From the NCBI GenBank assembly GCA_949130485.1, contig OX422195.1, forward strand, positions 2,341,566-2,405,565: a stretch of DNA of 64,000 nucleotides, written 5' to 3'. Of this stretch, positions 13,901 to 63,959 are shown piece by piece. The notes under the pieces are model-generated. The model was given only the letters and a program-made list of their open reading frames with translations. It did no database searches and was not told where the DNA came from. Both the position numbers and the translations under genes were made by a program. This stretch comes from Agelas oroides (Eukaryota; Porifera; Demospongiae; Agelasida; Agelasidae). Within the stretch, counting starts at the first letter, position 1. The number at the start of each line of letters is the position of its first letter.

Positions 13901-16900
13901 GGATTATGGACTCGATTTTGGACTGGAAAGCAGAATGTACGAACTGACCTTGTGTTTCAGAACTTTCCAGGCCTTCCCACCATCCAGTTTTAGATTGCGT
14001 CCAGTATTGCGCCAAAGGTTAGGATTATACATATTCCTATGCATTTTTTCAGCATAGATGTCAGCATTTAAGGCCTAGAAAATGCATCTGGAGTTAGGTA
14101 ATTGAGCTAGAGGCCAATGTAGTCTCACAAGCTACACCTTTTGCGAGGAGTGGGTTTGCAAAACTAGTGGCTGAGGTGATGTGTAGTGAGCATGGACTCG
14201 TGGCAGAGGAATAGAAGCAAGCCTTGTTGCAGCCAGGCTAGATTCTTCATCTGATTTCAGCTTGCTGCATGTCTAAAGCTTACATTAGGTGATATAAATT
14301 TGTAACTCCTTGCCACTGTAAGGAGCAGAGTGATGGCTTAAACCAACCAACCAGTCTTGCTGAAAGCTGCACACATGTCTGTTCCTACTGTTAGGCCAAT
14401 CCCTGCTCATTGGGCAATCCAGCATTTATAGTCTTCTTTAAAGGGCAAAACTAGAACACTATCAAGTCCAAAATCAAGTCCATAATCCAGTCCATAGCCC
14501 AGTCCACGGTCCAGTCCAGAATCCAGAGTCCAGGTTATACCCAATGGGTATACGTTTTGGTAAGAACTGGATTGTGCACCTAGATCTGATCCCCTGTTCC
14601 CTGACAGCCAAACACACACACACACCAGCTGATCAACTGGATTTGATTCCCTGTTCCACAATTGCCCTATTGTAGCTAGGCTTCCACACAAGTAGCTATT
14701 TGTAAATAGACAGAACAAGCTGGTTTGCATTCAAGTCACCAATTTCTTTCCACTTGTGGTGCGGTTAGCCTTGAAAAAAAAAACAAGAAATTTCCTTTCT
14801 ACAGTGATCTATTTACATGTGTAATCACTGAAACTAACTGCTAACTGGGTTGTTTAAGTGTATAACAAAATCTAAGTATGAGACTAAAGCTGCCTATTCT
14901 GCTGAACAATGAACTACACCTGTACACACATCACTGTGTGATGTTATGAACAACATAAATGTAGTAGGAAGCCACAATACATTCACATTATGCTTACCTT
15001 GTTCATCTGGCTCAAACATGATATTAATACTATTGCGCGGTGCCTTTGCTCCTTCGAGATGAACAAGGTATATAAGCTCCTCAGGTTTCCGCTGGCAGTC
15101 CTCCCACTTAAGACGAATTTGGCAATTTGGGATCGCTGGTGATGCTGGGCTGTATCTGTCTGCTTCTTCACGTTTGATCTACAGTAAGGGTATAAGAAAT
15201 TTTTAAAAACATAACATGGTATGTAGGGATAGAATCCCCCCAAAAGGGACAGATAAATAAAGATGAAGGTTGAGAGGTATCACTGGATGTTCTCACTACT
15301 CTGCATGGCACATAATATTTCCACAGTTTCTCCATCATGCATAATGTCTACATCTGACTAGGGGCTAACCATCGGATGTAGTATGGGTCGCAGTGACCAG
15401 CTTCCCTGCTTGACTCCATCCATGGGAATACTCAGAGTGATTTCATCATCCTCATAGATAACTGGTAGGTTATCAGCACCCTTGTACGCTCCCTTGAATA
15501 CCTTCTGAATTGCCTATACCAACACAGCCATAATAATGAGTTAGCAGTTTTGACAGAGCCGCAGGTGTTGACCTGCATATACAAACAATCATGTCAATGG
15601 TTGAGTACATAAAATCTTTACTGTGAACTATGTTATCTCAGCCATTGATACATGTCACCTAAAAGTTACAATTCATCGATCCACATGTAACTCTGAAGTG
15701 GTATGGTGAAGGCTGAGTGTATGTCAACATCTAACTTACAGCTATGGAGATTTCCTGGTTTCGGATGATCACAAAATGCAGCATCCAGCTGTAGACGCCG
15801 GGATTTCTTAGGTAGAACAGCTGTGCACTGTAGCTTACTGATGGCTCCACAGGAGTGGCAGTGATGTGTGGTCTCTCAGGTTCAGCATCACCTTGTTCCC
15901 AACCAAGAGCTTTCAACACTATACCCCACAGTGAGAAATGTGTGGTTCTAATTGACCCACATGGGGAGCGAGGGTTGAAGATGCCTCCTTCAACCAATTC
16001 AAACTTGTATGGTGGATTTCTCTGTGAGCAGCTGGCAAAGCTGAGTGATGAGCACTGATATGCATGCGTAATCTCCACGCAGTGCTCGATATCAAGTGTG
16101 GCTGACTCAGCTAGCTCCAGTGGAAGTGAGATACAGTAGACACCACTAACTGGCTCATAGCCCTCTGGAAACTCGTACTGCCCCCTGAGGCTAGCTGTCA
16201 CTCGAAGCTTCATTGGAAGTACATCTGGCACAACAGCTCCTTCAGGTATCCTCAGCCTTATGCCGTAGTTCTTCCACTTGAACACTTGGGGCAGGCTAGA
16301 AACTGTGTACGTTATGCCACCAACTCGTTCCACCCCAGGGATATCACAACCTTGACTCTCTGTGACAAATTAATGATAAATTAGACAACTAACATTCAGT
16401 GAACACATACCCAGTGCACATGCGTGAAACATCAACAAACCCTGAATAAAGGCAGCCTTACTGTACGGGATGCTTTCAGCCAATATCCCTCACGTTAATA
16501 TGCATTGACCTATGAATGGGGTTGTATTCTGTTTTCTTCCCTCCCTCTCCCTCTCCCAACATTGTGAAGTATGTATACCACTCAGCCCAGGTATGAGTAA
16601 GACACTCCCATAGTTTGAGGAACCACACCTTGAACCGAGGATTGAGTATCTTCCTTGTGTGCTTGTGCCTGGAGCATAGAGACTTGCTTCTTCAAAGATG
16701 CAATTTCTGTGTCTTTCTGCTCAATGGCATTTTTGAGCTCCGAAGATCTTTTGTCACATAACTGGATTTTCTGGCCTAGTTTGCTGAGCATCTGTTCATA
16801 CTTTTCCTTCAAGGCTTTCTTGGAAATATACTGTTCTATCTCGTCAAAAATCTTGGGCTCTCTCTCTTTGCTATGCTCTATCTTTGTAGCAAGATCTGCT

Positions 16901-17170
16901 TTATTGTTGCTTCTCAAAGCATCAAGGAGCACCCTCCAAGTAGGTGGCTTTGGTACATCATTCTCTAGGTCTATCCAGTACTCCAGCAAGGCTTCGCTGC
17001 ACTGCAAGGGCTCAGAATACTCTGACGTAATAGTACGAATGATTTCTGGACTGACGTTCATGAACATGGCAATTTCCAACCAAATTGGTGCAATTTCATC
17101 TTTGATACTGATGTTCTCAATTGATTCCAAGTGTTGTAAGGATCTGGTGGTGATGCAGCTATCAGGGAAC
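10990..17170 (-). CDS. Death / coiled-coil / ZU5-like / Death domain protein
   Basis: Five in-frame exons on the minus strand: about 17170-16629, 16359-15740, 15513-15370, 15178-14998, 11321-10990 (stop TAG at 10990-10992). The first encodes a Death-fold segment followed by a lysine/glutamate-rich coiled coil. The second looks like a ZU5 domain (YGIRLRIPEGAV early, RTTHFSLWGIV late). The third and fourth are beta-rich and unrecognised. The last is a clear Death domain with the WRAVGLQLGVS helix and the repeated Trp/Leu pattern. Similar Death-ZU5 combinations occur in PIDD- and UNC5-type apoptosis and receptor-adaptor proteins; the exact partner is unknown. The 5' end is unsettled: an ATG at 17211 is in frame, but a T-rich tract and AG just before 17170 suggest an acceptor, with the first exon further upstream. 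The 3.7-kb last intron holds two transposable elements. Confidence 0.75.
11625..12244. mobile_element. 620-bp MITE with CCGTAGAATCGGGTT ends
   Basis: The left end CCGTAGAATCGGGTTATCAG and the complement of the right end agree over about 25 bp with three differences, and both ends are bordered by TA. TA duplication plus non-coding interior suggests a Tc1/mariner-like or similar TA-inserting non-autonomous element. It lies in the last intron of the Death-domain gene. Confidence 0.75.
13842..14555. mobile_element. Foldback element with CTGGACT-repeat arms
   Basis: The left arm (about 13866-13930) is a run of TGGACTCTGGACTGGACTATGG-type repeats. The right arm (about 14465-14545) is its inverted complement, and an ATGGGTATA-like motif lies outside each arm. 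The interior of roughly 530 bp has no recognisable gene. Structure is that of a foldback element with tandem repeats in the termini. Confidence 0.65.
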
Positions 17171-17211
17171 TCTTCATCGTAAAAAAAATGAAAACAATAA
17201 CATAACTCCAT

Positions 17212-20200
17212 GACTAATTACTAAGTAGCCTTGCCCCCTTAAATCTCCTGTGAGTGAGGTGTGAGAGATATGTCTAAACCAGGGAAGCTCTAAGGGCATG
17301 TATCTTCACAAGTTTTGTGTGTGTGTGGGCAACGCCCTCACAAATATTTCATGTCTGCATACATGATGTAGCTAGGTGGTTCCACATCTTTCTGCCCGAA
17401 AAGATAGACTATGATGACTTGCGAACTTGTTTCATTGACTAGCTATAGCTCTAGCTGAAGCTGTACCTAGCTCCAGCTTGTCTATCAAGTAAATATTCTA
17501 CCGCAAGCTACACCATCTGTCACCTTTGACATGTACATTGTTACAAGCAAATTGTAACAGGGGGATTTATGTGAGTGCTGTGAACATTCACTCTCAGAAT
17601 AGTAGCATTTTGGTCCAAAAACCCTACTGCAATGTCATGACACTGTCAAGCCTGGGTGGGTGGGTATAAGGCTATCTAGTACTCTTGTATTTTGATCAGT
17701 GTCCCAGTTGTTGTATGCCTGAAGAAGGTCCAGATCGGACCAAAACGTAGCAAGAAAAGTTTGACCAATGTAATAGCGAAGCACTGTTCCAGAATCTGCG
17801 AAAGTGACCTTTCCACGATTTATAGTACCTGCATCACAGTCTTCGGCCCGAGATACCGGCTGTTAAGGGTTTCGGATTTCAAAAAAAAATAGTACTCTAT
17901 AAATCTGTTACAGTTTCCATAATTGACATTTACTAAAGTATACGTAGGACTCCCACGTTCAGTGATGCAGACAAAAATAATAAACTGCATGGAGTAACTA
18001 ACCAAAGTGAGTCTCTTTACATTGCAGATATACTACTCCTGCACATCACCACTCACCTGACAACCCAGTGATGCAAAGTTCAAGTACCACTCGACTTGCA
18101 CTTTGGCTTGCACCTTCAGACTGTCATGCGTAGAGAAAATGTGTTTGTAATGTTACACCAGGAGCTTAAGAACCATTATAGGACCTTTTAAGGGTGCCCA
18201 TAAGCCCCTGGTTATGTAAATACAGCCAGGACTGCCATAGCCCAATGCCTTCCTCAGCTGTCCACCCACTTAATTAAATCCAGTCAGGGATGTACCCATG
18301 TAAGAGTATATAAACCTAGCACTTTCAAATAGGTTTCAGAGCAGTTTAGAGCAGCTGTGTAAACCACCCTAATATGCTTTGGAAACTGCTTTCTGTAAAC
18401 CACATAATAACGTGGTTTGGCCAAACTGGTTTAATGTAAACCGATTTGAAACCGGTTTAAGGTGGTGGCGGAAGTCACTCAGCGGAGGTTAACGAAAACA
18501 TAAACCTGGGTTACAGTCAGGACCAGTGTTACTCCTAGTTTCAGGGTTAGGGTTTGGTTTAGGGCAATCTTGCTTTGCCTAATTTTAAAAAAGGGTTCTA
18601 GTAGCTTATTAATATATTCATGACCAAAAATTGCCACTCGATGGACGCATCTACATGCTCACTGTAGGTAGCGTCCTAACCACCAATGTATCTCAAATCA
18701 GTCTGTGCCAGCTTTTGTTCAGAGCTACTCTCAAAGTCATCATGTTTGTCACTACTCTTGGAATGTACAACTTTGACTGCACCAAAATGAATGCACATTT
18801 CAAAAAATTCACAGCTTGTCTATGGGATGGGCTCATTCACGAGTGCAAGCAAGCATTACTAGCCCCACCTCTCCCCCTTATGTCGCTAAACAACTCACGG
18901 CTCTGTTCCACACACAACTCCTCTTCAGCTTTCTTGTCAACGGCAACGTAGTACCAACGATATATTGCGCATTCTAGTTAAAGCCAAGCCCAGGACTCAA
19001 AGCACCGGGCCACAATCACCTACTAGGCTTGCCATACGATCGCAAGACCTGGGCCTGCCCAATGAGTACAGTCTTGGCCACTGTGGCCTTTCTGCTGCTT
19101 CTAGACACAAGCTTGCTTTCACAAGCAGGCACTATGCACTACTCACAGCTACTGACACTACAGCACTCTACTAAATTTTTTTTTAAGTCGATCTAAGCTT
19201 ATCTTCAAAGTTCCGACCACCACATGAGGGGTTCCGCCAGGCCACATCTTAACTAACTTAATTATAAACTGATTATTGGATGCCAATGCCGACAGGAAAT
19301 GGGGAAAATCCCCAATTTTATGGACAGTGAACGGATGAAGACTCCCAAAACTGACTATTTGCTACAATTTTAACAAGACAAAGAAGTCAATCAGCTTGGA
19401 TTCCAGGTTTGTTGACCTTGAAAATGCAGGATTCCCTGCCACCTTAACAGTCATGTAATTTTGCGTTCACATTCAATTCAGAAATTTGGGTGTGGTTAAA
19501 GGTGTGGCTTTTGTGGTAGTGCAATTTTGCCATGAAAGCCACACCTTTAACCACACCCAAACAAATTGCATGTGCACACAAAATTACATGCAAGTGTGTG
19601 GCCCCGCACCCCCTCTCAACATGAAGTGCACACCCTCTCAATGTAAGAAGTGCACCCCCTCTCAACGTGAAGTGTACCCCCTCTCAATGTAATACCCCTA
19701 CACTTTGGAAACTACCCCCTCCACCCTATTTTGTCACTGATCACCCCCCATAGGATTTATTGCTAGACTGTGGCAGAGTGGCTTAAGTTGTCGTGTACTC
19801 GCGACACTCTTTCCCTCTGGTATATATTACACAGCCACAAATTTTTGGACTCGATACAGTTCGAGATCATTACCTAAATGTTCTGTTGCGAACGTATTTG
19901 GAACTGAATTGGTACTGCAGTAGCATCAGAACAGTATCATACCAGTACACTTTGTAGTGTTGCTAAGATTCTGCAAAACCCTGTACAGGCTGTAGTACGC
20001 AAGGTTGACTGGTTGGTAGTCTTCCTGCCTTGTTCAGCTGTCTCCGCCTCACGTCGAATCCCCGCGTTCCCTCCTGCGCAGTAGCCTGTGACTTCGGCGC
20101 GCTTCTGGAAGTATTCGGAGTATCCATGCTCAGAATGAGCAGCAAAACAACTCAACAAAGCGAAACAAAACAAAACTGAATAGCAAATAACTTTCGACTC

Positions 20201-27885: not shown

Positions 27886-28429
27886 GGACCCGAAGAAGCT
27901 CAGTATGAAGTCCCTTGTGAGGTAAACTTTCACTTACAGCTTGCTATAGTTTTACGGGTCGTAGTTTTATACTTACAGTAACTCTGCAAACTAAATTCAG
28001 CATAATTTCTGGACCTGAAGAGCTTCAGTACTTTTCTCATGCCTTTTTTGTAGCTTGTGAGTGCACCAGCTAGCTAACATGCTGTGTGACTTACTAGTCT
28101 AGTCTTTCACGCTCAGGTCTAGCTTCACCAGTCCATACTAGTGATCATGAGCCATGTGCAGATTTTTTATAGTAAGTTCTAGTTTGCATGTGATGACCTA
28201 ATTGTTTACTACAATCTGAGTAGCTACAAGAACAAATTTTGTGTGAGCATCTTGGGGTACGGTTTCACTTGACCGCATTATTTAAGATACTAGAAACTTG
28301 TCCCTCAGCTATGGAACGCGGATTGCGACAAAAATCATCTTTTGTGTAAGCTGGATCGATTCGCGTTCTCACGGACCGTGTCGCGAGTGTTGGATCGAAG
28401 CGCGATCACGGGAACGCGTTTTGAAGAAC

Positions 28430-28620
28430 GTTCCAAGGATCGATCCCAGGAGCGATCTCAGGAACGATCTCAGGAACGTTCCAAGGATCGATCCCAGGAA
28501 CGTTCCAAGGATCGATCCCAGGAACGTTCTCAGGAACGATCTCAGGAACGGTCTCAGGAACGGTCTCAAGAACGTTCCAAGGATCGATCTCCAGAACGAT
28601 CTCGAGAACGATCGGAGGCT
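28430..28620. repeat. 12-bp array in the left transposon terminus
   Basis: About sixteen units of a 12-mer of the type CAGGAACGATCT / AAGGATCGATCC, rich in the palindromes GATCGATC and GGAACGTTCC. Read as protein it gives a Lys/Arg-Asp/Glu-Arg-Ser repeat, a by-product of the 12-bp period. The mirror array is at 34240-34430. Such subterminal arrays are often transposase binding sites. Confidence 0.9.
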
Positions 28621-28659
28621 CACACGGCGCATGCGTAATTAAGTGACACGTGTTCTGAA

Positions 28660-31600
28660 ATGGCAGGCAGACGCGAGGGTCAGTCCGGGTCTGCAAAACT
28701 TACACAGACACAGGAGCGTACCACTCTTTCACCCGCCCAAGTAGAGAGAGCTGTGGACGCCATTCAGTACTTGTCAACTATTGGGCGTTCAACTACAAAT
28801 GGCGATGGGACTACTCCTACAACGAGCTGCAGTGGGAGTAATGGTTCCAGTGACGGTAGTTCTGCTTTGGGTCAAGTGGAATCGGGATCAGGTACTGAAG
28901 TGTGTGTGCGTCAGGTAAATGTTGGTTTTTAGATATGTATCTACCTTATCAACTAGATTGTAATCAAGTTGACTGCATAAGTATGGTGATGAGTGGCATG
29001 CCAGGTTAGCATTACAGCATAGCTGGTTACCACTGGTGCACTAACAGATACTTGGATTGAATTATATTCAGGCCACTACACACAGTTTTACTATGCTGGT
29101 CTTGCAGACACATATATATTAGTAGCAAAAATCCTGAGTAGTTTTACATGTCAGTTTTGTTACAACCAGGAATTGTTGTGGCAGCAGATCGTGCTCTTGT
29201 AGCACTGAAAAAGATGCGAGCAGGGATGAGGGCAGATCGAGTAATTCAAAACAAGAGAAAGATCAAGACTGAAATGTCTACTCTGTTCACTCATAAAAAG
29301 AAGTTGAAGCTATGCAAACCCGTAGCATGGAAACACAAGTTCTACTGCCTTGCTTACATAGGACAGGATCGTGTTCCCACCACTGATACCGACAAGGATG
29401 AATTATTCCAAGCAGGACTGGGGGAGAAGGATATTGAGTTTGAGTCATTGGATATTACTCAGGAAGAGTTCAAAGAGCACATCTTTGCCAGCTTTCCACG
29501 ACTGAGGGAAGGTGGTGGATTTCAACTTCTAAAATGCCTTCCAAACAGCCGTACTTTGGAGGTGCTCTCAATGGCTGTTCATGTGTCTCCCAGCCTACTC
29601 AAGCAACGAGTGGGAAAATCTAGAACCTCCATTCGGCCAATCCAACAAGACCTAGACCTAACTCCTCTTGATGAACCACCAATTGGAGTAAGTCAAATTG
29701 TATACTACATTAAGGGTTTTCAATATATACCCTTTTATCTGCAGCCATTTGAGAAATGCCTAAGCTGTGGAGGGGAGTACTCACTTGATGATCTTTCTCG
29801 ACATGTTGAAGAGTGTCAGAAGATGTTGTAAGTGAACCCCATTGAGTTTCTTGAATGGTGTGCGTAAATGCTAATTGTGCATAATTGTGTACAGTTGTTG
29901 GCAGTGCCTCCTCTAAGTATTGGTACTGTAAATGAATTACTGTAGGAAAGAGGACAGTATTGAGAAGGAAGAAAAGAAACTGCATCCTGTGTAAGCTAAG
30001 GAATTATTGTTTTTCTATAGTATCTAGAAACGTGCTAGCCGTGACAGTTCCCAGCCCTAGCCTTCCCCTTTTTTCCCCCTGGTTTATGTTCAGTAAAATA
30101 CACAGAAGCAAAAAGTGGCACTCCTTCACTTCTGTGTATTATACTGAACCGCAACCCAAAGAACAAAATTATGTGGGAGGCCTGGGAATGAGGCTACCAG
30201 CATGATTGTAATGTTGTGCAATTAACTTGAAACTTTCCTGTAAACATGGCTTATGGTTACTAGTAAACCTCCTTAGAGCAATTTTAATTAGAATGGGTTT
30301 AGTGCAACATGGTCATCAAAAAAATGCTGTTATTCATCATGATAGTCACATGAAGGAAGTGATTGACCTTACTCCACACAGTTCAGGTGACAGCAGTACA
30401 GAAGAGGTAGGTTGATGTTTCGCATTTTACTAGGACCTATAGATGGTGTTAGTTGGTAGCATGTTACTTGGTTGACTAGTTACTTATTCCTATTACCATA
30501 ATGCTTTGGAGAGGAGTTAATGTATGCTCCCGTTCTGCATTTATTGTTCAGGGAGACCTACCTGATGTAGAAAGTGCTATCTTCCAGAGTGTCATTCAGG
30601 AAAGCCTCCATGATATTGGAGGCGAGACGGGGATTTCTTATCACCCGGAGCCAAGTGATGACATCAGCAGGTGTATGCATATGTAGTACCAAAAATCTAT
30701 CGAGTGGATTTATGTGAAGGTATATTTTTATGTATAGGTTCACATCAGCAGATCACATTGTGACTCTGGCAGATGCCATAAGAGTTTTGGCAAGGTCTGT
30801 GTTGAATGAAACTGTGGTTTTGGAAGTTAGGCGTTCACACGTTGTCAAAGATGCACTTAAAGAGGCCAGGAAAGCAAAGTTCTGTGCTAACAAACTTGCT
30901 AAGGTAATCTGAACATTACATTGACATGAATGTTAAGACCTGTTTGGTGACTACGCTGTTTTGTTTCTTACAAAGGGTCCATGAATAGGATCACCCATGG
31001 ATCATGTGTGATATCTTGTTATGTGTAGGTTAGGTTTGTTGGAGAAGGGGCTGTGGACCTTGGCGGACCCAGGAGGGAGTTTTTTCGCCTCTTTGCTTCT
31101 GGTTCCAGAAAGTACTTTTTCAGAGGTTCTGAGACAAGCCAATTCTTTTACAACAATGTCTCTGCTGTTCAGGTCAAATATTACACTTTTGAAAACATTG
31201 CATTTGCAACCTGTGTTTATACATAGTTCTAATAAACCCTTACTGCATTAAAGTACCATTAGTCATTTAACTCATTTCCTGTGCTTTCACTTACATTCAC
31301 TATATGGTATGCTTATCGTCACTCATTATATCTTACCCTCATATTGTTATTCCATATATAGGCAGATGATATCTACAGCTTTGGGAGGTACATTTCCATG
31401 TCTATTTGCCAGGGAGGCTGTGGAATACCGTTTCTTGCACAACCTGTATACACATACCTGTGTACAGGCAAGTGCACAGGTATCACCGTTGACTATGATG
31501 ACATCCCAGACCCTGTATTGCAGTTTGTAGTACACAAGGTACAGTGTGTGTGTGTGTGTGTGTGAGTGTGTGTGTGTGTGTGTGTAATGTTTTTTACTTA

Positions 31601-32335
31601 TACCATGCAGATTACTGATGCACAAGATGCCGATGAGCTGCGGGCTGTATTTGCTATGGATGAGGCTGCTGAACTGTTGCTGTCAACAGGTTTTCGAAAA
31701 GCACTCTGCAGTTTGGTAATGGAGGATAAGCAGTGCTTGAGATAGGTTCTTCTTGATTATCACTGCCTACTCAAAGTAAAGGCTGAGATGGATCAGTTTG
31801 CAGAGGGATTAAAGAGCTTGGGAGTGTTGGATATGATGAAACGCCATCCCGATCTGTTCGCATGGTGGCTCAGAGGCATTTAAAGACCTGGTTGTAGTAA
31901 AATATAGTGAGCAGGGCTCGTCTATCTATCCCTTGGAGCAACAGGCATGGGTGCACTTCATTGACTTCTTGGATGAGTGTGCTGGTACGTAACTTGCTAC
32001 TTTACATCTCAATCTGCCCCCCACTAAAATGCAATGTCATGGATACATAGATCTGTAATTATCTAACCTCTCTTTTTTTTGCAGAAGAGAAATTAACTGG
32101 CTGTAGCATCGAGGAAGTTCTAGTTTTTTTCTCAGGGACAGACAGAGTTCCTCCTCTGAACTTTGAGAAACAACCCACTATCACCTTCTTGCACAATGCA
32201 TCTGCCAAGTTTGCAACAGCAAGCACATGTGACTTACAGCTACGCTTGCCAACTGGCTATGGTGAAGACTATGATGCCTTTAAGAGTGCAATGGTGATGG
32301 CTCTGAAGGACAATGATGGCTTTGGAGGTGTGTAG
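28660..32335 (+). pseudogene. Transposon-borne HECT-type E3 ubiquitin ligase gene, disrupted
   Basis: Likely exons: 28660-28914, about 29157-29687, 29745-29827, 30292-30406, 30552-30670, 30738-30903, 31029-31172, 31362-31538, 31611-31984, 32085-32335. Exon 3 encodes a small zinc finger (CLSCGGEYS then HVEEC). Exons 7-10 encode a HECT domain: VRFVGEGAVDLGGPRREFF at its start, then a C-lobe with the catalytic cysteine in ASTCDLQLRLP (TGT at 32228-32230) and the terminal DGFGG. The fold resembles G2E3-like HECT proteins. Two lesions break it: an in-frame TAG at 31743-31745, and a frameshift between about 31855 and 31885, after which the frame resumes at the codons for EAFKDL. Exon 1 to 2 phase is unresolved, so another exon or start may exist. 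Family function is ubiquitin transfer through a cysteine thioester; its role for the transposon is unknown. Confidence 0.8.
30035..30195. mobile_element. Degenerate TAG...CTA element inside the transposon
   Basis: CTAGCCGTGACAGTTCCCAG at one side and GGCCTGGGAATGAGGCTA at the other are diverged copies of the family ends. The inner pair AATACACAGAAG and CTTCTGTGTATT is complementary, as in the copy at 35009. Confidence 0.5.
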
Positions 32336-32576
32336 AACTTTTGATTCCACCTTCCAAGTCACCATCACATAAGCAGTGTTGAGTTTGCAACTTACATACA
32401 GAACTGCTCGTAACATTCGTAACACCTATTGTGTTCTGACAGTACTATCTCATTTACCTCTTGCTTATGTGTTCTTTTGTGCTTTACCAACAACTTTTGT
32501 CACGATTCCATTCTTTTGATAAGCATGACATGCTAATGCATTGTTGCCTCAATGCACTACATAAACTGTACAAATA

Positions 32577-34150
32577 CTATTGAGAATCTGATAGTGAGTG
32601 TATGATAGATCGAGTTACTGCATAACTGTGAATCATCCATTCATCATTCATGCTTGCTGGTTGTGAGATGTGTTGTCTTAGTGTGGTCATCTCTTCCTGT
32701 GACAAGAAGTGAGGCAACTCCTCAACTACAACAGTGTTTTCATCCTCATCCAAGGGGACTGGTCCTTCAAAATCAATTCCAAATTCCTGCCAGCTTTCCT
32801 GAATAGAGAAATCCATAATTATAATTACAAAATGTATATTGCAAATATTGTACCTGACAATCAAACCACAAGTGAGGAAGTTTACATGCACAGTAAGGCA
32901 TAAACTATGCAGTCAAATCACCGTACCTCAGACATCCCAGTAATTGCAGCATGAGAAGGGTCTGAGGATTGCATCCGATGAAGTCCGAGGATCCACAGCT
33001 GTTGTGGTGTTTGGTATTGTTCAGTTCGTAGTGTGTGGTGAGCCCATCCATTCCGAAACAAATCAAGTTGTTGCTGTATGACAGGCAGAAAGATGAAATG
33101 GAGTGCGTACAGATCACGTGCATCATTCACATCAAGCATTCCCGAGTCCTCTAGGGAATAAAACAAGGTATAGAAGCAGCACACACATCCTGCATATAGA
33201 TCCCTCCAAAGTCTTTCAATCCTTTGGTTGTGTACACTTCTACCGGCAATCACACTTCCTCTACCAGGTCCACGTTCTGGGTGTTCTAGCATGTATTCGC
33301 TAACACGAACATTTTCACCACCTCTATCAATTCTGATTCGAGATGGGAGTCCAAACTGGTCAACTGCTGATGTAAATGCTAACAGTACAGTAGATGCAAG
33401 ATTGTTGGTTGATGCTCTGAGAAACATAATTAACCTACTGTACCCATCTATAGCTCCATGAATAACAATTTGCCATCTTATCAACCTATGATATCCATCC
33501 AAGTGCCAGAGGGCATTAGGGGAATCAACATGGTACCTTCTTCGACGAAGTACACGCCTTGCACGTAATTCGACTCCAGTTGGATCTATGCGACGCAAAG
33601 ATTGCCTTACCCTCTCCCTCTGAACATGAATGCCTTGGCTCCTTAAGTACCCTCTGATGACCCTTTCACCAGACTGTGGATGTAGAGAATTGATCTCTCC
33701 TATCACCTGATCTAAATCAAAATCAGAAATATGGGTGAAATGGTGTGATGTAATCCCAAACTCAAGGAGTCGACATTCAATTGTGCGACGACTGCAGTTC
33801 ATTAGTGATGCTATGACACCAACTTGAAATCCACTTTCGACCAGAAACACAAGCTGTTCTTCCATTATTTGCAGCCTGGGACGACCTCGGTGTATGGTTG
33901 GTAACCTTGGTTCCATGGAATCAGCCATTTGGCGAAGTAGTGCTCTTAGAGATTCCACAAATGGCAAAGCTTCAGGGGTCACACTCTCAAGCAGAATAGC
34001 ATATTGCAAAGCTTGTGAACACAAATCAAACAGCTCGTCCATTCGCTCCCTGGATACAGACTGGCCAATTTCCGTCACTACAGCTTGTAATACTCTTTCT
34101 GCAAAGTCCAGTGCTGTCCGAGAAAGTTGCTGGATGTCAAAGGACGACAT
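32577..34150 (-). CDS. DDE integrase/transposase of the 6.2-kb transposon
   Basis: Two exons, 34150-32927 and 32798-32577, join in phase to about 481 residues with no interruption. The N-terminal third is helical, followed by a helix-turn-helix-like segment ([20 protein letters not shown]). The catalytic core has D in [11 protein letters not shown] in IRIDRGGEN and E in HNQRIERLW, with 36 residues between the second D and the E, close to the retroviral D35E spacing. The C-terminal acidic tail ([15 protein letters not shown]) resembles tails of integrase-core proteins predicted in many invertebrates and fish. The start ATG at 34150 lies just inside the right terminal repeat; upstream in-frame codons belong to the 12-bp array and were excluded. 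It should act in the nucleus on the element's own ends. The intact frame suggests recent activity or selection. Confidence 0.88.
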
Positions 34151-34239
34151 ATGAGTAATAAGCAAATACGGACCGTTTACGGACGATTCCGGGAATGCTG
34201 TTGCCTCCTTGAGATGGTCCCGGAGATCGTCGTCCTCGG

Positions 34240-34430
34240 AGATCGATCCTTGGAACATTCCTGAGATCGTTCCTTAGATCGTTCCTGGGATCGATCCTTG
34301 GAACGTTCCTGGGATCGATCCTTGGAACGTTCCTGGGATCGATCCTAGGAACGTTCCTAGGAACGTTCCTGAGATCGTTCCTGAGATCGTTCCTGGGATC
34401 GATCCTGGGATCGATCCTTGGAACGTTCTT
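34240..34430. repeat. 12-bp array in the right transposon terminus
   Basis: Inverted counterpart of the 28430-28620 array: repeated GATCGATCCTTGG and GAACGTTCCTGG units, then the unique terminal 120 bp. Unit order differs slightly from the left arm, so the arrays have been shuffled. Confidence 0.9.
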
Positions 34431-35008
34431 CAAAACGCGTTCCCGTGATCGCGCTTCGATCCAACACTCGCGACACGGTCCGTGAGAACGCGAAACGATC
34501 CAGCTTACACAAAAGATGATTTTTGTCGCAATCCGCGTTCCATACTCAGCAAGTCATGCAAAACAGTTGCTGGAAGGCATGCAGCAAAACAAAACACCAG
34601 AAAAAAATCACAGAGTCTGTATTGTGTCCAAAGATGTGCAACATTTTAACAAGAATACTGAACTCTAAGACTATTTTCAGAGAAAACTGCTCTTGCAAAC
34701 TGAATCATGCACAGTGCAATCTGTTGAAGTGTACTCCCAAAGTAGTCTCAAATGTCTCATGTTCTGAGGGACATGTCTTGTCAAATGTAATGGTTGCTTA
34801 CTACACAAAGAATGTCATAATTGCATTTAAAATCTTGATCTCAAAATGCCGACATGCAGTTTAGTGCTGAAGAACATTTACATCTTTTTTTTAAATTTTA
34901 CCTTGCTCCTCCCTATCACAAAAGCCTCTTTCCATGACAATGTTCTCGTTTGGGGTACAGTGTGTGTCAAATTGCTCCACAGACTTAAGTTTAAACTAGC
35001 ATAAGCCT

Positions 35009-44876: not shown

Positions 44877-47800
44877 TCAGCTATCAACTTGTGAACCAGT
44901 GTACTTCTTCAATTTCACAATAGCTTGGATTGGAACCTGTTGGAAATAAATAGATTTTTACTACCAAAGTAGTATATACTCCATTAAGATTAAACATGCA
45001 CTTACTGCTATTACCTTGCATTGAGGACATTTTGATGCTCTCCTTGCACACGGCTCACACACAACACTGTGCTCACATGGGTCAAACTTGATTGTGATGG
45101 GTGTGTCACACAGGAAACACAGCTCTAGACAAAATTGACACACATAACTATAGCACCAGTGAACCCTTGTAGCAAGAATAGGCTACACAACGCAGTGATG
45201 AATCAGTGTTTTCAGTGTATCACCAGTACATGCTAACCTGCATCTTTAGGCACATTTTCAGTTTCCTGATCTGACAATGGTTGGGGAGATTGTTTCTGTT
45301 CCTCTGGAGCTGGGTTAGATTCTGATGTAGTACCAGGGTTAGATTCTGATGTAGCGGAGTCAGGCAATGATGGTGGAGGAATCTTAATAACTTTGGTAGA
45401 ACTAGGATCCAAACATGTAGGTTCCTTCATCTCAGGCTATAAAAATAGAAAAATATCAATAAGTGAGGGATTACGTGCAGGGAAGAGTGACTATTTGAAA
45501 AAGGTGAGGGATTGAGGCAATAATAGCTGCTCAAAGGGTATGTTACTGTAAGCAATCACCAATAGGCACTATATATAGTCTTGTGAGTAATGATTTCCCA
45601 CATAAGAGAGCAAAGAGGGTGAGAAATAACTTTTTCATGCATTTAGCTTCCTCTCTCTCTTGACACATCATCAACAATGACTGTTGATCACCTTCACATC
45701 CTTGGTTTGGACAGGTTGAGCATTAACAGCAGTAGGCTGCAACACTGGAGTAGGAGTTTGAGGTTGAGCAGCAGAAGGGCACAGACTGCCATGAAATGTT
45801 CCTGTGCTAGGGACAACAGAACACAGAGCACAGAATCAAGTACAATTGTAGGGTATACGTACACCAGCTAGCTAACCCAGCATGTTTCTCGGCAAACTCC
45901 AACACTTTGGCAACACTCTCTGGTGACTTAGAGCACATTTGCAAAGGGGTGAGACCATTCTCGTTTGTGAGGTGGATGTCAGCCCCTTCTCGTACAAGGA
46001 AACATGCCAAAACAACACCCGGCGCAATGGTGTCATCCTCTTGGTCAAGAGCTTCTTGAACCTGCAAACATGCACCAGGGATAAAGTTTTGTTCATTAAA
46101 TCATTGAACTCTTGTAATACAAATCTACACCCTAGTGATCTTCAGTAGAATTTATACTAAAATCTCTCATCAGTTTTACAGTGTATAGCTCTGGAAATGA
46201 GCTACCATTTAATCCCAACATTCCAGTGAATAGATAATATATCTGGAAGGGTGAGACAGGTAGAAAGTGGGTTATTATTGCATGCATGGCTAACTCTGCT
46301 TATGACAAAGCACTTCTGCATTGGCCTGAAGCATTCTTCTTATAACATACCTTTCAGAGCTGCTACAATTCTCAGCACGTGTAACTATAATCTTGATACT
46401 GTGGTCTTGATATTTACTTATGGAATTTGTGTAAAATTGTAAGATCATGATAAAATACCTTCATTAGTTCTGGAGTTTCAGAAGAAGGAGCATCCACCTC
46501 ATCCCTGCCCAGAACAAGACGCAGTGGTGCATTGTCATCGCTATCAACCGCATTCAGAACAAGATGCAGTGGTGTGTCCTCATCACTGTCAACAGCATTC
46601 AGGTCAGCACCATAGCCCACCAGATGCTCCACTATTCTTGACTTTCCTTTCATTATCGCCATGTGTAGTGGTGTATGCTTCATCACAGTCCTTGGATCAA
46701 TATCACAGCATTTCTAAGAGAGTATTACGGAAGAACGAGTGGATAGCAGCATCACTTTTGGCATGCATAATTGGGTCAAAGCTCCCATTCACACAGTTGT
46801 GGACACAGAAAAATTGTGTTGCTAGCACCATAGAAAATTAAAGTGTGTGCTTACTTTGGTTAAGAGTGAATGAGTGCCATTATTTATTGTAGTATCTTGA
46901 ACAATGTAATATCTTAGCCACAACTTCTAGGTACACTCAACAATACACACACTGCTGTGTTACAACAAAAACATCTTACTTAACTAGAGGCTACATAGCA
47001 ACCAGGCTAGAATTACAAGTAAACAGGAAAACATGAACCTTATCACTCTAGCAAGATACAATGATAATTAGTGCTAACTAGCCTACCAGACGATTTACAT
47101 AACACATTAACAATGTCCCAAACTAAAAAGATACAGTAACTAAAAATAGGTACAGTTCAGAGATCAGGCTATCACACTTCACCCTCTTAGCAAAAGCTAC
47201 ATGTATCGGTCGGGAGGATGTGCAACTCGAGTCGAACGGCGTAGTGGTACAGCTGCAGAGCCTGTTGTCTCAGTTACAGAGGAATGGTCAGAGCAGGCAA
47301 TTGCTGTAGGGAGACAATCATCCTCAGTAGTAATCGGACTGGACAAGGATTGAGAGTGTTGCCTGCGAAGATTGTCAACATGACGCGTAACAATCCTACC
47401 ACCCTGTCGCTGGTGGTAGTGCGAGGCTCCGGCCCAACGCTCCTAGGGAGAGATTGCCTGCAAAAGATTACTCTTGACTGGAAGGGCATACACCAAGTGC
47501 AGACAGATCCAACAACCATGCTCAATGATGTGCTCAACCGCCATGCCAACGTGTTCAAGCCAGATTTGGGTTTGGTGAGGGACACCACTGCAACAATTTA
47601 CGTTGACCCCACAGTTCCGCCCGTCTTTTGTCGCCCTCGCCCAGTGCCATATGCCCTACGGAGCAAAGTCGAAACAGAGCTGAACCGATTGGAACAAGAA
47701 GGGATTATTGAACCCGTTCGGTTCTCAGAGTGGGCGGCACCCATAGTACCGGTAGTGAAGAGGGACGGATCCATCCGCATTTGTGGTGACTATAAGGTCA

Positions 47801-50800
47801 CAATTAACAAAGCAGCCAAAGTGGACTCATATCCCCTACCTCGCATTGAAGACTTGTTTGCCACGCTGGGAAAGGGGAAGACCTACACTAAGCTGGACCT
47901 AGCCCATGCGTATCAGCAAATCGAGTTGGATGACAAGTCCAAGGAGCTAGCCACTATCAACACTCAGAAAGGCTTGTATCGTTATTGCAGGTTACCGTTC
48001 GGTGTTTCGTCCGCCCCTGCAATTTTCCAAAGGACCATCGAGGGTATTCTGCACGGCATTCCCAGTGTTGCTGTCTATATCGATGATATCCTCGTGACCG
48101 GATCATCGGAGAGTGAACACCTGAAGACTCTAGGTGAAGTACTAGCACGCTTAGAAGCTGCCGGATTGAGGCTGAAACAAGAGAAGTGTGCCTTTATGCT
48201 CTCCTCTGTGGACTATCTAGGCCATGTTATATCCTCTGAGGGACTAAGTCCAAATCCAGAGAAAATTCGTGCCATTGTCGATGCCCCAGCCCCGCGAGAT
48301 GTGCAGCAGCTCCGCTCATTCTTAGGCCTGCTGAACTACTACTCAAAGTTCCTGCCCAACCTATCCACTACGTTAGCACCACTGTACCAGTTGCTTCAAG
48401 CCAAGGTTAAATGGACTTGGGGAAAACCACAGAAAGAAGCTTTCATGGAAGCCAAGAGCCAGCTCACCTCCTCAGGTGTTCTCGTGCACTTTGATCCTCA
48501 GCAGGAACTGACCCTCTCATGCGACGCCTCTCCGTATGGAGTGGGAGCTGTACTCTCTCACAGGATGGTAGATGGCTCAGAGAAGCCCATCGCTTTTGCA
48601 TCTCGATCCTTGACCTCAGCAGAAAAGAGCTATGCACAACTCGAAAAAGAAGGTCTCGCAGTTGTATTCGGCGTGAAACGTTTTCACCAATACCTTTATG
48701 GCCGACGATTCATGATCAACTCAGACCACAAGCCGCTCAAGCATCTTTTCAGCGAAGACAGACCTGTTCCTCAACTGGCATCAGCTCGCATTCAACGCTG
48801 GGCACATCTCCTCAGTGCCTATGACTACAGTATGGCTTACCGTCCAGGATCAGACCATGCCAATGCCGATCTACTCAGCAGACTGCCTCTACCAGAAGCT
48901 CCTGCCCAAGTACCAGTACTAGGTGACACAATTTTGCTCATGGACACACTGGAAGGAACTCCAGTAACAGCGTCACACATTCGTACTTGGACTTCGCGTG
49001 ACCAGGTCCTCTCCACAGTACTTCAGAAGGTGCAGAAGGGTTGGGAAGGTCCGACAGATGACGTGTTGCAACCCTATGCAAGGAGGAAGGACGAGCTCAG
49101 TGTGCAAGACGGATGTCTCTTGTGGGGGAACAGAGTCATTGTCCCACCACAAGGTCGAAGCAAGGTCATTGATGAGTTGCACGAAGGTCACCCAGGGATG
49201 ACCAGAATGAAACAACTCGCAAGATCATTCGTCTGGTGGCCTAGCATTGATAAGGATCTGGAAGAGAGGGTAAAGTCATGTGACCAATGTCAACGTACCA
49301 GGGGAGCACCTACGGTAGCTCCTTTGCATCCATGGGAGTGGCCAGGAAGGCCATGGACCCGAGTCCATGTTGACCATGCAGGCCCCTTCCTCGGAAAGTT
49401 GTTTCTGGTGGTTATAGATGCGCATTCTAAGTGGCTCGAAGTCGTCGTGGTGCCATCCACAACATCTGCAGCCACCACAAAGGCACTCCGAAGTATATTC
49501 GCCACACACGGATTGCCAGAGGTTCTTGTCTCTGATAACGGACCAGCATTCACGAGTATTGAGTTTAAGACTTTCGTTAAAGAGAATGGTATTCGTCATA
49601 TCACAACCGCACCCTACCATCCAGCTGGTAACGGACTAGCCGAAAGAGCAGTCCAGACATTTAAACAGGCATTGAAGAAAGAACCAACCGTGGATCTGGA
49701 CACTCAGTTATCCAAATTCTTGTTTCGTTACCGTATGACACCTCACGCCACTACAGGAATCCCTCCAGCAGAGCTTCTAATGCAACGCAAGCCGCGTTCG
49801 CGTTTGGATCTATTAAAACCCCAATTGAGCACCACTGTGCATTTGAAACAAACCAAGCAAAAGTTTAACCATGACAAATCCACTCCAGTTCGTCAGTTTG
49901 AAATTGATGATGCTGTTTATGTTCAAGATCTACCCTCAAGATCAACTTGGTTACCCGGAACAGTTGTTAAGATACGGGGACCGCTGACTTATGATATTGA
50001 GCTAGAAGATGGTAGGATTGTTACGCGTCATGTTGACAATCTTCGCAGGCAACACTCTCAATCCTTGTCCAGTCCGATTACTACTGAGGATGATTGTCTC
50101 CCTACAGCAATTGCCTGCTCTGACCATTCCTCTGTAACTGAGACAAGGATTGAGAGTGTTGCCTGCGAAGATTGTCAACATGACGCGTAACAATCCTACC
50201 ATCTTCTAGCTCAATATCATAAGTCAGCGGTAGTGTGTCGGCGAATTTGCAATGTTCGGAGAGTTTTCGGAGGTCGGCCATGAATTCAGCGACAGTTTCT
50301 CCTTCCTTCTGAGTGCGTGAGTGGAAGCGAAAACGTTGCACAATAGCAGATGGTTCGCTATAAAATATTGCTGCATCCGTTCACAATAAGAAACCCAGTC
50401 CTCCTTCGCTCTGTTGAACTCTCCAATGTATTGTTGAGTGTACCTAGAAGTTGTGGCTAAGATATTACATTGTTCAAGATACTACATTTGGCGACGAGGG
50501 TGGGATGAGAATGACCACTCACGGCAACATTGGAGAGTTCAACAGAGCGAAGGAGGACTGGGTTTCTTATTGTGAACGGATGCAGCAATATTTTATAGCG
50601 AACGATATCGCAACCGACGATAAGAAGAAGGCAATTTTGCTAAGTACTTGTGGAGCTGAAACCTATCAGCTCATTCGAAGTCTCGTGGCTCCGCAGAAGC
50701 CGACGGAGAAATCCCTGTCAGATATTATCCAATTGGTCAGGGACCACCACACCCCACCTCCATCTGCTATTGTGCAACGTTTTCGCTTCCACTCACGCAC

Positions 50801-53800
50801 TCAGAAGGAAGGAGAAACTGTCGCTGAATTCATGGCCGACCTCCGAAAACTCTCCGAACATTGCAAATTCGCCGACACACTCGATGATATGCTTCGTGAC
50901 CGCCTCGTTTGCGGCATCAGGGATGCGCGCATACAACGACGTCTCTTGGCAGAGCCGGATTTGACCCTTAAGAAAGCTTTTGACTTGGTACAAGCGTCGG
51001 AGACAGCTGAGAAAAACTCCAAGCAGTTGCATCAGCAGCTATCTCCTCAACCTGTTCACGCGCTCTCGCGCCCTAGGAACCTGACTAGACAGCATAATAC
51101 TGTATCCTGCTATCGCTGCGGTGGGAAGCACGCAACGAAGGACTGTCACTGCCAAGATGTGGTTTGCCACAACTGCCATAAGAAAGGACATCTCGCTCGA
51201 GTTTGCAGGAGCAAACCGCGATCGCATCGACAAACAGCAAGTTCGAAGAACCGGCCGAGACAGAACACTCACCACGTCGCACAAGGAGACGAGGCTTCTC
51301 TCCCATCTGAGGAGCAAGCTCCCAACCCGGCCCAAGAGTACCCGGAGTACTTATACCGACTCAGTGACCAACGACGTTCGGCCCAGCCGCTTACCGTGAG
51401 AATGCTTCTCAACGCAATCGAAGTCGAAATGGAAGTTGACACTGGTGCATCCGCGACTATTATGAGCGAAGCTACGTACAGAGGATTGTGGCCCAAGGCG
51501 AAGGCGCCACTACTGCAGCCGACTCAGGTCAGACTCCAAACGTACACGGGTGAACCACTGACAGTACTAGGAGCAATTACCGTAAACGTCCAGTATCACG
51601 AGCAGTCCGCCACCCTCGTCGCCAAATGTAGTATCTTGAACAATGTAATATCTTAGCCACAACTTCTAGGTACACTCAACAATACACACACTGCTGTGTT
51701 ACAACAAAAACATCTTACTTAACTAGAGGCTACATAGCAACCAGGCTAGAATTACAAGTAAACAGGAAAACATGAACCTTATCACTCTAGCAAGATACAA
51801 TGATAATTAGTGCTAACTAGCCTACCAGACGATTTACATAACACATTAACAATGTCCCAAACTAAAAAGATACAGTAACTAAAAATAGGTACAGTTCAGA
51901 GATCAGGCTATCACATTTATATGGCAGATAAACCATAGGGATAGCAAGAAGAAAGTGTATGACTGGCAAGAGGCAACTGTTGTATGAATCATATGCAAAA
52001 ACAGCCAGTCATCAGAGCAGCCATGTCATGTGTAATAAATTAGCAATGACATAATCAGTACAGACTGCCATAGACTATTTGAAGAATAATTATCACTCTT
52101 AAGGTTGTTAAATGTTTTTTTTGGTCTCTCATAAAGCTTGTTAGAGCTGACTGTACTGAGGATGCATAGTTTATACAACTGCCAGTCAGATACACACAAG
52201 TACAAAGCATCACATGCATACATATTACCACCAACTGGTTCATTCACCTGTTCAGCAAGGTAGGTGACAATATCACGGTGGTTGGCTACTGCAGCCACAT
52301 GCAGTGGCGTTAGGCCATCATCAATCCTCAAGTTCAGATGCTGAGGAAAGCGTGTGATAAATTCTTCCATTGCCCTGAATGGACACAATAGATTGCATTC
52401 AGAGTACTGGCTTTAAGTAGCTATGGAGGCTCTCTCTCCCTCTCTCAATGAAATATAACAGACTCACGTTGTGAAGCCAAGGCTTGAAGCCAGATGCACT
52501 GATGTTATGAGCTTGAAGTTGACAAGAGTAGGGTCTGCACCTGCTTCCAGCAGAATCCTCACAGCCCTGTGATTCTTGGCATGCACTGCACAGTGTAGGG
52601 CTGTGTCTCCACTCGAGTCCTAATTAAATAGTGTAGTATACTTCAGCAATTGATTCATGTCATACAGTACGCCACATATTTACATGTGTATACCTGGGCA
52701 CTAAGATCTATTTTGGGAAGATTAGCAAGAAGGGTAAGCACGTTGTTGCTTCCTTTAAGAGCTGCAATGGTGAGTGCAGTGTTCCCATCCTGAGCCTTGG
52801 AATTTGGGTCAGCTCCAGCATCCAGCAACACCTTGGCAGCCTCAGTTTCATCCCTACATCAGGGAAAGTTAATCAGGATTGCAATACACACTAATTATTA
52901 TGTACTTTATACCTTATTACACAGTGGTGGAGTGGTCTTAGTCCATCATCATCCTGTGTGATAGGTTTCTATCATCACTGTAGGCACAGCTTACATTGAA
53001 TCATACTCATAATATTACCTGCACATATACAAGCAGTCAACTAAAAGTACAGTTATGTGTAGTACATGTAAGGTAGTTATAGTCTTCTCTCCAACGTAAT
53101 ACATGCAGTGAAACCTGATGTGGGATTGATCAGATTGATCAGATTGTTACACTGTACATCTGTAACTGTAACTTCATTTGATCCTGATTACATGCTAGTG
53201 TGAGCTAATGTACAGGTATAAGAGACTTGTGTAACGTATTGCAAACTGCTTTAACCTCTATCTCCACGTCTGCCTGGAACTCAAACAGCATTTTCATCAC
53301 AGACACTTTGCCTGCTGCAGCAGCACAGTGCAGTGCCGTTTTTCCACAAAACTTGGCATTCACCTGCATTTGAAGGATAAGGGTATATAGTGTGACAGTG
53401 CTGCAAATCCACCACCATGCAGGGTGTTGTTAATCCACCAGTCTCTATCACAGGTCTATACAGTGTATAGCTACCATATTTACCATGCTCGAGTGCTCGG
53501 TGCCATGTTCTGTTATGCAAGTGCCATATTCTGCTATAATACTTTGCCATGGTTCTACTCCATTCTACCCTGGCCATGCCATACTTTGTGGGCTAGAATG
53601 TGCTCTATGGTAAGCGTTAAGACAATAGTTAATCTCACCGGAGGGCTCATAAAGTATTATACACCCTGTATCATGCAAGTTCGGTTACATTACCTCATTG
53701 GGATACTTTTCCAGGTAGTCTCTAATCATAGAATCCTCTCCAAGGAGTGCAGCGTGAGCTAGAAAATCTGAGCTCTCATCCTCAACCAGAGCAAGCATGC

Positions 53801-62370: not shown

Positions 62371-62529
62371 TGTAGTATCTTGTGATTATTTCCTGTTTCC
62401 GTTTTGTGGTTAATTAAGTAGTCTATTTATTGTACAGACTTGTTGTAAGAATTCAGTCTGGTTCAGTGTAATGCCGTGTACTATGGCTACATACTATTGC
62501 GTGTGAAACTGATGGCTCAAGTCATGACA
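62371..62529 (+). repeat. Candidate 5' LTR of the second retroelement
   Basis: About 159 bp starting TGTAGTATC and ending ATGACA, directly followed by TATTTTGGCGACGAGGACGG, which matches the primer-site region of the first element. The matching 3' LTR is outside the window, so the left border is a guess from the TG...CA rule. Confidence 0.45.
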
Positions 62530-62558
62530 TATTTTGGCGACGAGGACGGGATTCGCTA

Positions 62559-63959
62559 ATGGCCGCGCTGTTGGGAAGAATAGACCAGTTCGATCCCGAG
62601 CAGGAAGAATGGCCTCAATACGTGGAGCGGTTAGAACAGTTTTTCGAGGCGAACGACATTACCGGAGAGGATAAAGCAGCGAAGCGGCGTGCTACCTTTC
62701 TTTCAGTCATTGGGCCGACGCCCTACAAGTTGTTGCGAAGCCTCATAGCTCCCACGAAGCCCACCGACAAGACGTTCGAAGAGCTAGTTGCCGTACTTAC
62801 CGAACATTACAGTCCACAGCCGTCAGAGGTCATGCAACGGTTCCGCTTCAATTCCCGGTCGAGGAAAGAGGGAGAATCTGTGGCAGCGTACGTCGCAGAG
62901 CTACGTCGTCTTGCTGAATTTTGCAATTTCGGAACCACTTTGGACAAAATGCTCCGGGACCGACTCGTATGGGGCATAAAGGACGACAGCATTCAAAAGA
63001 AGCTGCTTCAGGAGAAAGATCTCACTTTTCAACGAGCCCTGGCTATTGCCCAAGGGTCGGAGGCAGCTGATCGAAATTTGAGAGAAATGAAGGCACCCAT
63101 CATTCAGTTTGTTCAACAGGGATGGCCAAGCTCCTGTGCAGAGCAGGATCAGCTCGCTCCATTTTTCGACAAGAAGACAGAACTCTCAATCCACGAAGGA
63201 TGTCTATTGTGGGGATCTCGAGTCGTCGTACCAACCCCATGTCGAGAGGCTGTGCTTCTGGAGCTCCATGAAGGACATCCAGGGTGCACACGAATGAAAG
63301 GCCTAGCTAGGATGTACGTGTGGTGGCCTGGCATTACGAAGGACATCGAGAACACTGTCCGTCACTGCTCTGAATGTCAACAACATCAGCCAACTCCGCC
63401 AGTTGCACCACTACATCCCTGGGCATGGCCGACCCGTCCTTGGGCTCGTCTACATCTAGACTATGCCGGCCCAGTGCAAGGAAAAATGATTCTTATCCTA
63501 ATTGACGCCCATTTCAAGTGGATCGAGGCTATCTGTACTCCAAGTGCTACCTCAAGCGCAGTGATAGAAGAATTGAGGACACTCTTTGCACAGTTTGGGA
63601 TTCCTGAGACAATTGTCACCGATAACGGTTCTTGCTTTGTCAGTGCTGAAATTGAAGCCTTTTTTGAGAACAATGGTATCAAACACATAACATCAGCACC
63701 CTACCATCCGGCCTCTAACGGATTGGCCGAACGTGCTGTTCAGATTGTGAAAAGAGGATTGAAGAAGATCACTCAAGGCAGCATGCGTAGTCGTTTAGCA
63801 AAGACACTTTTCACTTATCGCCTCACCCCTCAGACTACAACTGGTATATCTCCAGGAGAATTGTTGCTCGGAAGACGTCCCAGATCTAGACTGGATCTGC
63901 TGAAACCCCACACGGCTGAAAGGGTTGAAAGGAGTCAGATAGAAGGAACAGCACGATAG
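62559..63959 (+). CDS. Gag-integrase fusion ORF of a Ty3/gypsy element (RT deleted)
   Basis: One uninterrupted 466-codon frame starts at the ATG 30 bases after the primer-site region. Residues 1 to about 185 are a gypsy capsid (QRFRFNSRSRKEGESVAAYV). At about residue 185-190 the frame passes directly into the region before integrase (FVQQGWPSS), then the H2C2 finger (HEGHPGC, then CSECQ) and the integrase core: D in HLDYAGP, D in VTDNGSCF, E in NGLAERAV, with 35 residues between the last two. Nucleocapsid knuckles, protease, reverse transcriptase and RNase H are missing. It ends at a TAG shortly after the RSRLDLLKPH motif, earlier than full-length pol. It is either a deleted, trans-mobilised copy or a capsid-integrase protein kept by chance. 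Confidence 0.85.
   Translation: MAALLGRIDQFDPEQEEWPQYVERLEQFFEANDITGEDKAAKRRATFLSVIGPTPYKLLRSLIAPTKPTDKTFEELVAVLTEHYSPQPSEVMQRFRFNSRSRKEGESVAAYVAELRRLAEFCNFGTTLDKMLRDRLVWGIKDDSIQKKLLQEKDLTFQRALAIAQGSEAADRNLREMKAPIIQFVQQGWPSSCAEQDQLAPFFDKKTELSIHEGCLLWGSRVVVPTPCREAVLLELHEGHPGCTRMKGLARMYVWWPGITKDIENTVRHCSECQQHQPTPPVAPLHPWAWPTRPWARLHLDYAGPVQGKMILILIDAHFKWIEAICTPSATSSAVIEELRTLFAQFGIPETIVTDNGSCFVSAEIEAFFENNGIKHITSAPYHPASNGLAERAVQIVKRGLKKITQGSMRSRLAKTLFTYRLTPQTTTGISPGELLLGRRPRSRLDLLKPHTAERVERSQIEGTAR

Follow-up and report, generated by a model that had tools for sequence, protein, structure and literature searches.

A DDE transposase and a HECT ubiquitin ligase gene within one IS3EU-type transposon lineage of the sponge Agelas oroides

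The element at positions 28310-34544 of the window, by which we mean the whole stretch of 64,000 nucleotides of the Agelas oroides genome analysed here, is best read as a member of an old two-gene IS3EU lineage, composed of a DDE transposase and a HECT ubiquitin ligase that serves the element. The two genes share one pair of ends and are mobilised as a unit; they have diverged in step and have long been under constraint. It is almost certain that a diverged lineage with IS3EU-type ends, in which a DDE transposase is accompanied by a tail-to-tail HECT E3 ligase, is real; that the HECT protein serves the element is probable, and that both statements hold jointly is likely. In this one animal genome a ubiquitin ligase is a regular partner of the transposase in many diverged families, under an amino-acid-level constraint equal to that on the transposase.

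Direct reading and a script both define the segment 28310-34544 as a complete DNA transposon bounded by inverted ends TATGG..CCATA. The left end (28310-28613, plus strand) begins TATGGAACGCGG and the right end (34241-34544, minus strand) ends CCGCGTTCCATA; the two 304-nt arms, whose inner part is made of 12-bp repeats, are 89% complementary, and their outermost 121 nt are 99% alike. The target-site duplication CTCAGC is present immediately outside on both sides (28304-28309 and 34545-34550; sequence reading and script). The arrays of 12-bp repeats within the ends extend over 28414-28610 and 34217-34437 and are possible candidates for transposase-binding sites. A second full copy is found at C6:3587827, at another site and with its own duplication, CAGAAC, and is 98% identical across the whole unit, which excludes that the element arose by chance. 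Over 6219 columns, 71 aligned substitutions distinguish the two copies, and some of these substitutions are alignment noise at the deletion, so the spread is recent. A first-pass annotation had proposed that 28310-34544 moved as one unit, and the ends, the inverted repeats, the flanking CTCAGC and the copy elsewhere bear this out. The HECT gene and the transposase gene are arranged tail-to-tail within the element, with about 240 bp between their stop codons.

The transposase gene is located on the minus strand (32577-34150) and is composed of two exons (34150-32927 and 32798-32577) encoding 481 amino acids, with the catalytic residues D218, D275 and E312, the last two separated by 36 residues. 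The frame is open in the window copy, in agreement with the intact integrase noted in the first pass, to which the second exon has now been added. Pfam assigns the minus-strand ORF to rva_4 (8.7e-80), and to rve at 1.1e-6, slightly under the cut-off of that model. The three catalytic residues are unchanged across 28 aligned sequences, consisting of the transposase of the window and 27 others picked among 120 listed of 1954 protein matches; the only named organisms among the listed protein matches of the transposase and of HECT are Dysidea avara and Amphimedon queenslandica, which are both sponges. The Pfam result shows no integrase zinc-binding domain, and IS3EU is characterised by the lack of an HHCC motif ahead of its catalytic core. 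The AlphaFold model has a mean pLDDT of 70 and is poor in its core; most of the folds that it matches in the PDB are integrase cores, but no match reaches an E value of 0.001. A sequence search of solved structures gave no match at 0.01, and relatives of the transposase were found neither in phage records nor in viral contigs.

In the available text of two papers (PMC10045372, PMC12730594) the IS3EU/GingerRoot elements are described as having TA..TA ends, in fungi TAYGG..CCRTA, and duplications usually of 6 bp. The window element shares with them, as far as that text describes them, the TATGG..CCATA ends, the 6-bp duplication and the integrase-like DDE transposase, and it fits IS3EU by ends, duplication length and DDE type, as matched to published descriptions rather than to sequences; the likeness of TAT ends and 6-bp duplication to IS3EU pointed out in the first pass is in this way backed by print. 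Genes for an alpha-kinase and for TET are reported in fungal IS3EU in the available text of PMC12730594, so the superfamily carries regulatory enzymes. According to the same text, the alpha-kinase of all fungal TET-bearing families is opposite in orientation to the transposase, as is the second gene here, and TET is thought to aid escape from methylation-based silencing. The second gene here differs from these in being a HECT ligase, and the words HECT and ubiquitin do not occur in the available text of either paper. This animal HECT partner suggests that the IS3EU superfamily recruits regulatory enzymes. Among the open-licence literature matches listed, none described a DNA transposon, of IS3EU or any other kind, that carries HECT, and no open-licence paper contained "IS3EU" and "HECT" together; within that scope, which excludes Repbase, where one may be listed, the gene pair appears undescribed, in keeping with the first pass.

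The HECT-ligase gene occupies 28660-32335 of the plus strand and is composed of 11 exons (28660-28891, 29170-29687, 29745-29827, 30292-30406, 30552-30670, 30738-30903, 31029-31172, 31362-31538, 31611-about 31860, which is damaged, 31874-31984 and 32085-32335), with GT-AG at the remaining splice sites, consistent phases and a Pfam HECT match. A 43-nt candidate exon (29946-29988) was dropped since the phases agree only without it. The encoded protein carries, in this order, an N-terminal domain without Pfam match, a C2HC finger and the HECT domain. The domain encoded by exon 2 (29170-29687), for which Pfam has no match, is conserved across many HECT loci and also in proteins of Dysidea. The HECT domain matches PF00632 at 5.9e-9 (36.4 bits, cut-off 23.9) over positions 11-304 of the 306 of the profile, and so over both lobes, when a read-through translation with X at the stop and at the deletion is scored. 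The best solved relative is AREL1 (6jx5, 1.5e-7), which is alike in HECT sequence over both lobes and in the cysteine; the cysteine codon, read at 32228-32230 and aligned with AREL1, is conserved in all 14 C-lobes compared and likewise in the divergent HECT genes of loci L047 and L049. AREL1 and other HECT ligases are host genes with different N-terminal parts.

The zinc finger (C-x2-C-x11-H-x3-C; 29757-29816, plus strand), identified in the translation and kept in eight compared sequences, is closest to the fingers of TRAFD1/XAF1 and RNF125. A UBZ4/RAD18-type naming, considered from the spacing, was rejected in favour of these, the UBZ model scoring 0.037. Two short motifs were recognised by eye: VIDLT (30359-30373), which we take to be SIM-like and which is alike in C4 and in the protein P0123, and a helix (30564-30614), presumably UIM-like, which is alike in C4, P0121 and P0122. 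The SIM-like motif is found in some members only, both motifs having been read in few, and a Pfam search of the protein for UIM gave no match. The combination of finger, UIM-like helix, SIM-like motif in some members and HECT domain suggests, as far as motifs can tell, an enzyme that seeks out modified proteins and ubiquitylates them. Reader motifs for ubiquitin or SUMO, which these motifs read by eye would be, would also suit repair sites, and the ligase could then act at DNA gaps or replication forks, aiding repair of the donor or target site. This we regard as improbable: the link to RAD18-type repair proteins failed because the finger resembles those of TRAFD1/XAF1 and RNF125 more closely than it fits the UBZ model.

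Protein searches with the HECT sequence returned only 3 and 4 matches. One of the relatives, P0123, is annotated in Dysidea avara as "G2/M phase-specific E3 ubiquitin-protein ligase-like" and has the finger, the IDLT motif and the HECT domain in common with the protein of the window, to which it is 36% identical over 68% of the query; its AlphaFold model (mean pLDDT 40) is useful for its finger only. P0123 could in fact belong to a transposon and have been annotated as a host gene, and the same may be true of some other "G2E3-like" annotations in invertebrates. Orthology of the window gene to G2E3, which bears N-terminal fingers of the PHD/RING type, is not supported, as the HECT protein showed neither a PHD nor a RING finger: Pfam on the whole protein gives HECT only, and its finger is a single C2HC.

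In the window copy the HECT gene is damaged. There is an in-frame TAG within the HECT domain (31743-31745), at a position where a sense codon stands in both the C6 and the C2 copy, and at a deletion junction (31860-31873) the end of the exon and the next intron with its donor site are gone, both of which are kept in the C2 copy. Because of the stop and the deletion, the window copy, as judged from its reading frame, probably cannot produce a whole HECT protein even though it encodes the cysteine. The first-pass description of a spliced gene with zinc finger and HECT domain including the catalytic cysteine thus holds for what is present in the DNA, while the gene itself is broken. The C6 copy has lesions of its own, which are a 4-bp insertion in exon 2 and a different deletion hitting the same exon and intron as the deletion of the window. 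Both full copies of the window family therefore pair a broken HECT gene with an open transposase, as could be expected if HECT were cargo, captured once and carried along without use to the element. Such cargo should decay between families, yet across families the HECT gene has the same pN as the transposase (see below), its cysteine stands in 14 of 14 C-lobes, and it is retained between the ends in five families; with a further point in its favour, the retention of HECT without transposase at C7:7988742, cargo still has only a small probability. Under the reading of a ligase serving the element, single copies such as that of the window can lose the ligase and still be moved, since a ligase of this kind can be supplied in trans.

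The host genome searched comprises 259 Mb in 141 contigs. The transposase search gave 108 matches, 78 after merging, and the best 30 of the 78 merged loci were examined, two of which proved to be one locus. At 26 of these best 29 loci a HECT gene adjoins the transposase: within 1.5 kb at 22 by BLAST of C-lobes (L060 through a short degenerate match only), at about 1.8 kb by a Pfam HECT match at L046 and L048, and as divergent genes missed by Pfam at L047 and L049, which score 27 and 62 bits with the family profile while none of 40 shuffled controls exceeds 1.7. At L068, L069 and L070 the 1.5 kb of neighbouring sequence showed no HECT. Genome-wide, Pfam HECT has 97 matches in 49 merged loci, 22 of them less than 5 kb from a transposase match, as compared to 0.15 expected by chance. 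As a share of the 78 merged transposase loci these 22 are a lower bound, since Pfam misses diverged HECT copies, that of the window included, and the reading covered the best 29 loci. By nearest match, 19 of the 22 pairs are tail-to-tail and three are on the same strand; in two of the latter only a small inverted piece of transposase lies nearest, its main stretch being tail-to-tail with HECT, and in the C4 pair the two genes are on the same strand.

Seven elements combine the two genes with inverted ends and a 6-bp duplication, and belong to five families: the window element and C6:3587827 in one, C2:8039234 and C1:27559035 in another, and C11:3107532, C7:8773001 and C2:9276667. The ends of the other six are TATGG..CCATA as in the window, and the duplications of the seven are CTCAGC, CAGAAC, CTTTCC, AACTTG, GTGTCA, GGGGCG and GATAGT, part of them obtained with a script set to 6 bp only. 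The copy C1:27559035 was read except for its inner 2.2 kb. C2:8039234 carries both an open HECT domain (Pfam 3e-18) and an open transposase frame. That a host HECT gene came to lie beside a transposase relic by coincidence is rejected and has practically no credence left: we found no point in support of it, and it is refuted by the ends and duplications around both genes in the seven elements and by the 22 pairs against 0.15 expected.

The seven elements and the 26 of 29 loci give the first-pass annotation the further copies, with both genes between the ends and 6-bp duplications, that it had asked for. A lineage with the same ends that never contains HECT was not encountered, as the sole other copy with near-identical ends, C6, has HECT; nor was a HECT gene of the host without ends, as the transposase-free HECT at C7:7988742 has a transposon end, with no transposase in the stretch read. 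The C11 copy seemingly is without one HECT exon that is present in its relatives C7:7988742 and C7:7888835. The latter locus is not among the matches of the transposase search, and the two are near-identical C11-type HECT copies lying about 100 kb apart without transposase match, which may represent either a duplicated segment or a deleted element. C3:2658177 (L061) was first read as an element with transposase only, and carries a partial HECT C-lobe. No inverted ends were found at C4, C6:4.57M, C22, C1:5.43M, C2:13.4M, C3:8.12M and C2:9.43M, where some of the stretches were too short. Relatives with ends 75-85% alike are 0.5-1.5 kb long or consist of one end only; when the entire element is used as BLAST query, little besides the ends is matched in them. 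Short relatives with similar ends are located at C3:4298125-4299574 (L013), C3:9196765-9197983 (L014) and C8:10046575-10047110 (L015); L013 is flanked by a GATTAG duplication, and none was seen for L015.

The distances of transposase and HECT C-lobe correlate over 21 loci (r 0.89, p 0.0001) and over 11 family representatives (Mantel r 0.65, p 0.0001). The two trees agree in their close groups and disagree on the position of the C11 and C6:4.58M families; that of HECT is built on 72 columns, with four of its 16 inner branches strong. When the window and C4 families are compared, pN amounts to 0.228 in HECT (566 codons) and 0.229 in the transposase (403 codons), synonymous sites being close to saturation. 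The comparison of the window with C2 gives a weak 0.46 for HECT and transposase alike, and near-identical copies have too few changes for constraint to be judged on either gene (ratios from 0 to 2.2).

In weighing a two-gene lineage whose ligase serves the element, we counted in its favour the seven complete elements, the 26 of 29 loci, the 22 pairs against 0.15, the correlated distances, the equal pN, the cysteine, the element C2:8039234 with HECT domain and transposase both open, and the regulatory enzymes of fungal IS3EU. Against it we counted the broken HECT in both full copies, the exon apparently missing in C11, the scarcity of changes between near-identical copies, the weak 0.46 of window against C2, the three of 29 loci where no HECT was found within 1.5 kb and the by-eye reading of the two short motifs in a few members. 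The ligase would be a working part of the life cycle of the element rather than cargo. It would meet modified proteins by way of the finger together with the UIM-like and SIM-like motifs, and would ubiquitylate a nuclear target, for which a host silencing or chromatin factor on the transposon DNA is the likeliest candidate, by analogy with ICP0, the herpesvirus ligase that removes repressors. As a target, host silencing is favoured and turnover of the transposase comes next, even if we put forward host silencing itself as tentative, at somewhat below even chances. If the ligase instead controlled its own transposase, it would tag that protein, or the strand-transfer complex, so that it is removed once integration is complete, limiting copy number or clearing the DNA for repair, as ClpX acts on MuA. 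One tail-to-tail HECT gene per transposase and the correlated divergence would be expected of interacting proteins, but common descent in one element yields an equal correlation without interaction, and we hold control of the transposase to be rather unlikely. Doubtful to a greater degree is the most far-reaching form of the silencing proposal, namely that in a deep branch of IS3EU in animals the two genes form an obligate system, whose HECT ligase reads ubiquitin or SUMO marks and strips host silencing complexes from transposon DNA; if true, a cut-and-paste transposon would be using ubiquitin against its host, in the manner of some viruses. A working ligase would offer a direct way to study protein degradation as a means by which DNA transposons evade silencing or control their own transposase.

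Elsewhere in the window, long plus-strand ORFs at 47245-51656 and 62472-63959 look by eye like parts of LTR retrotransposons (reverse transcriptase, integrase, gag-like), and host-like ORFs on the minus strand at 15731-17217 resemble, also by eye, ZU5 and death-domain stretches.
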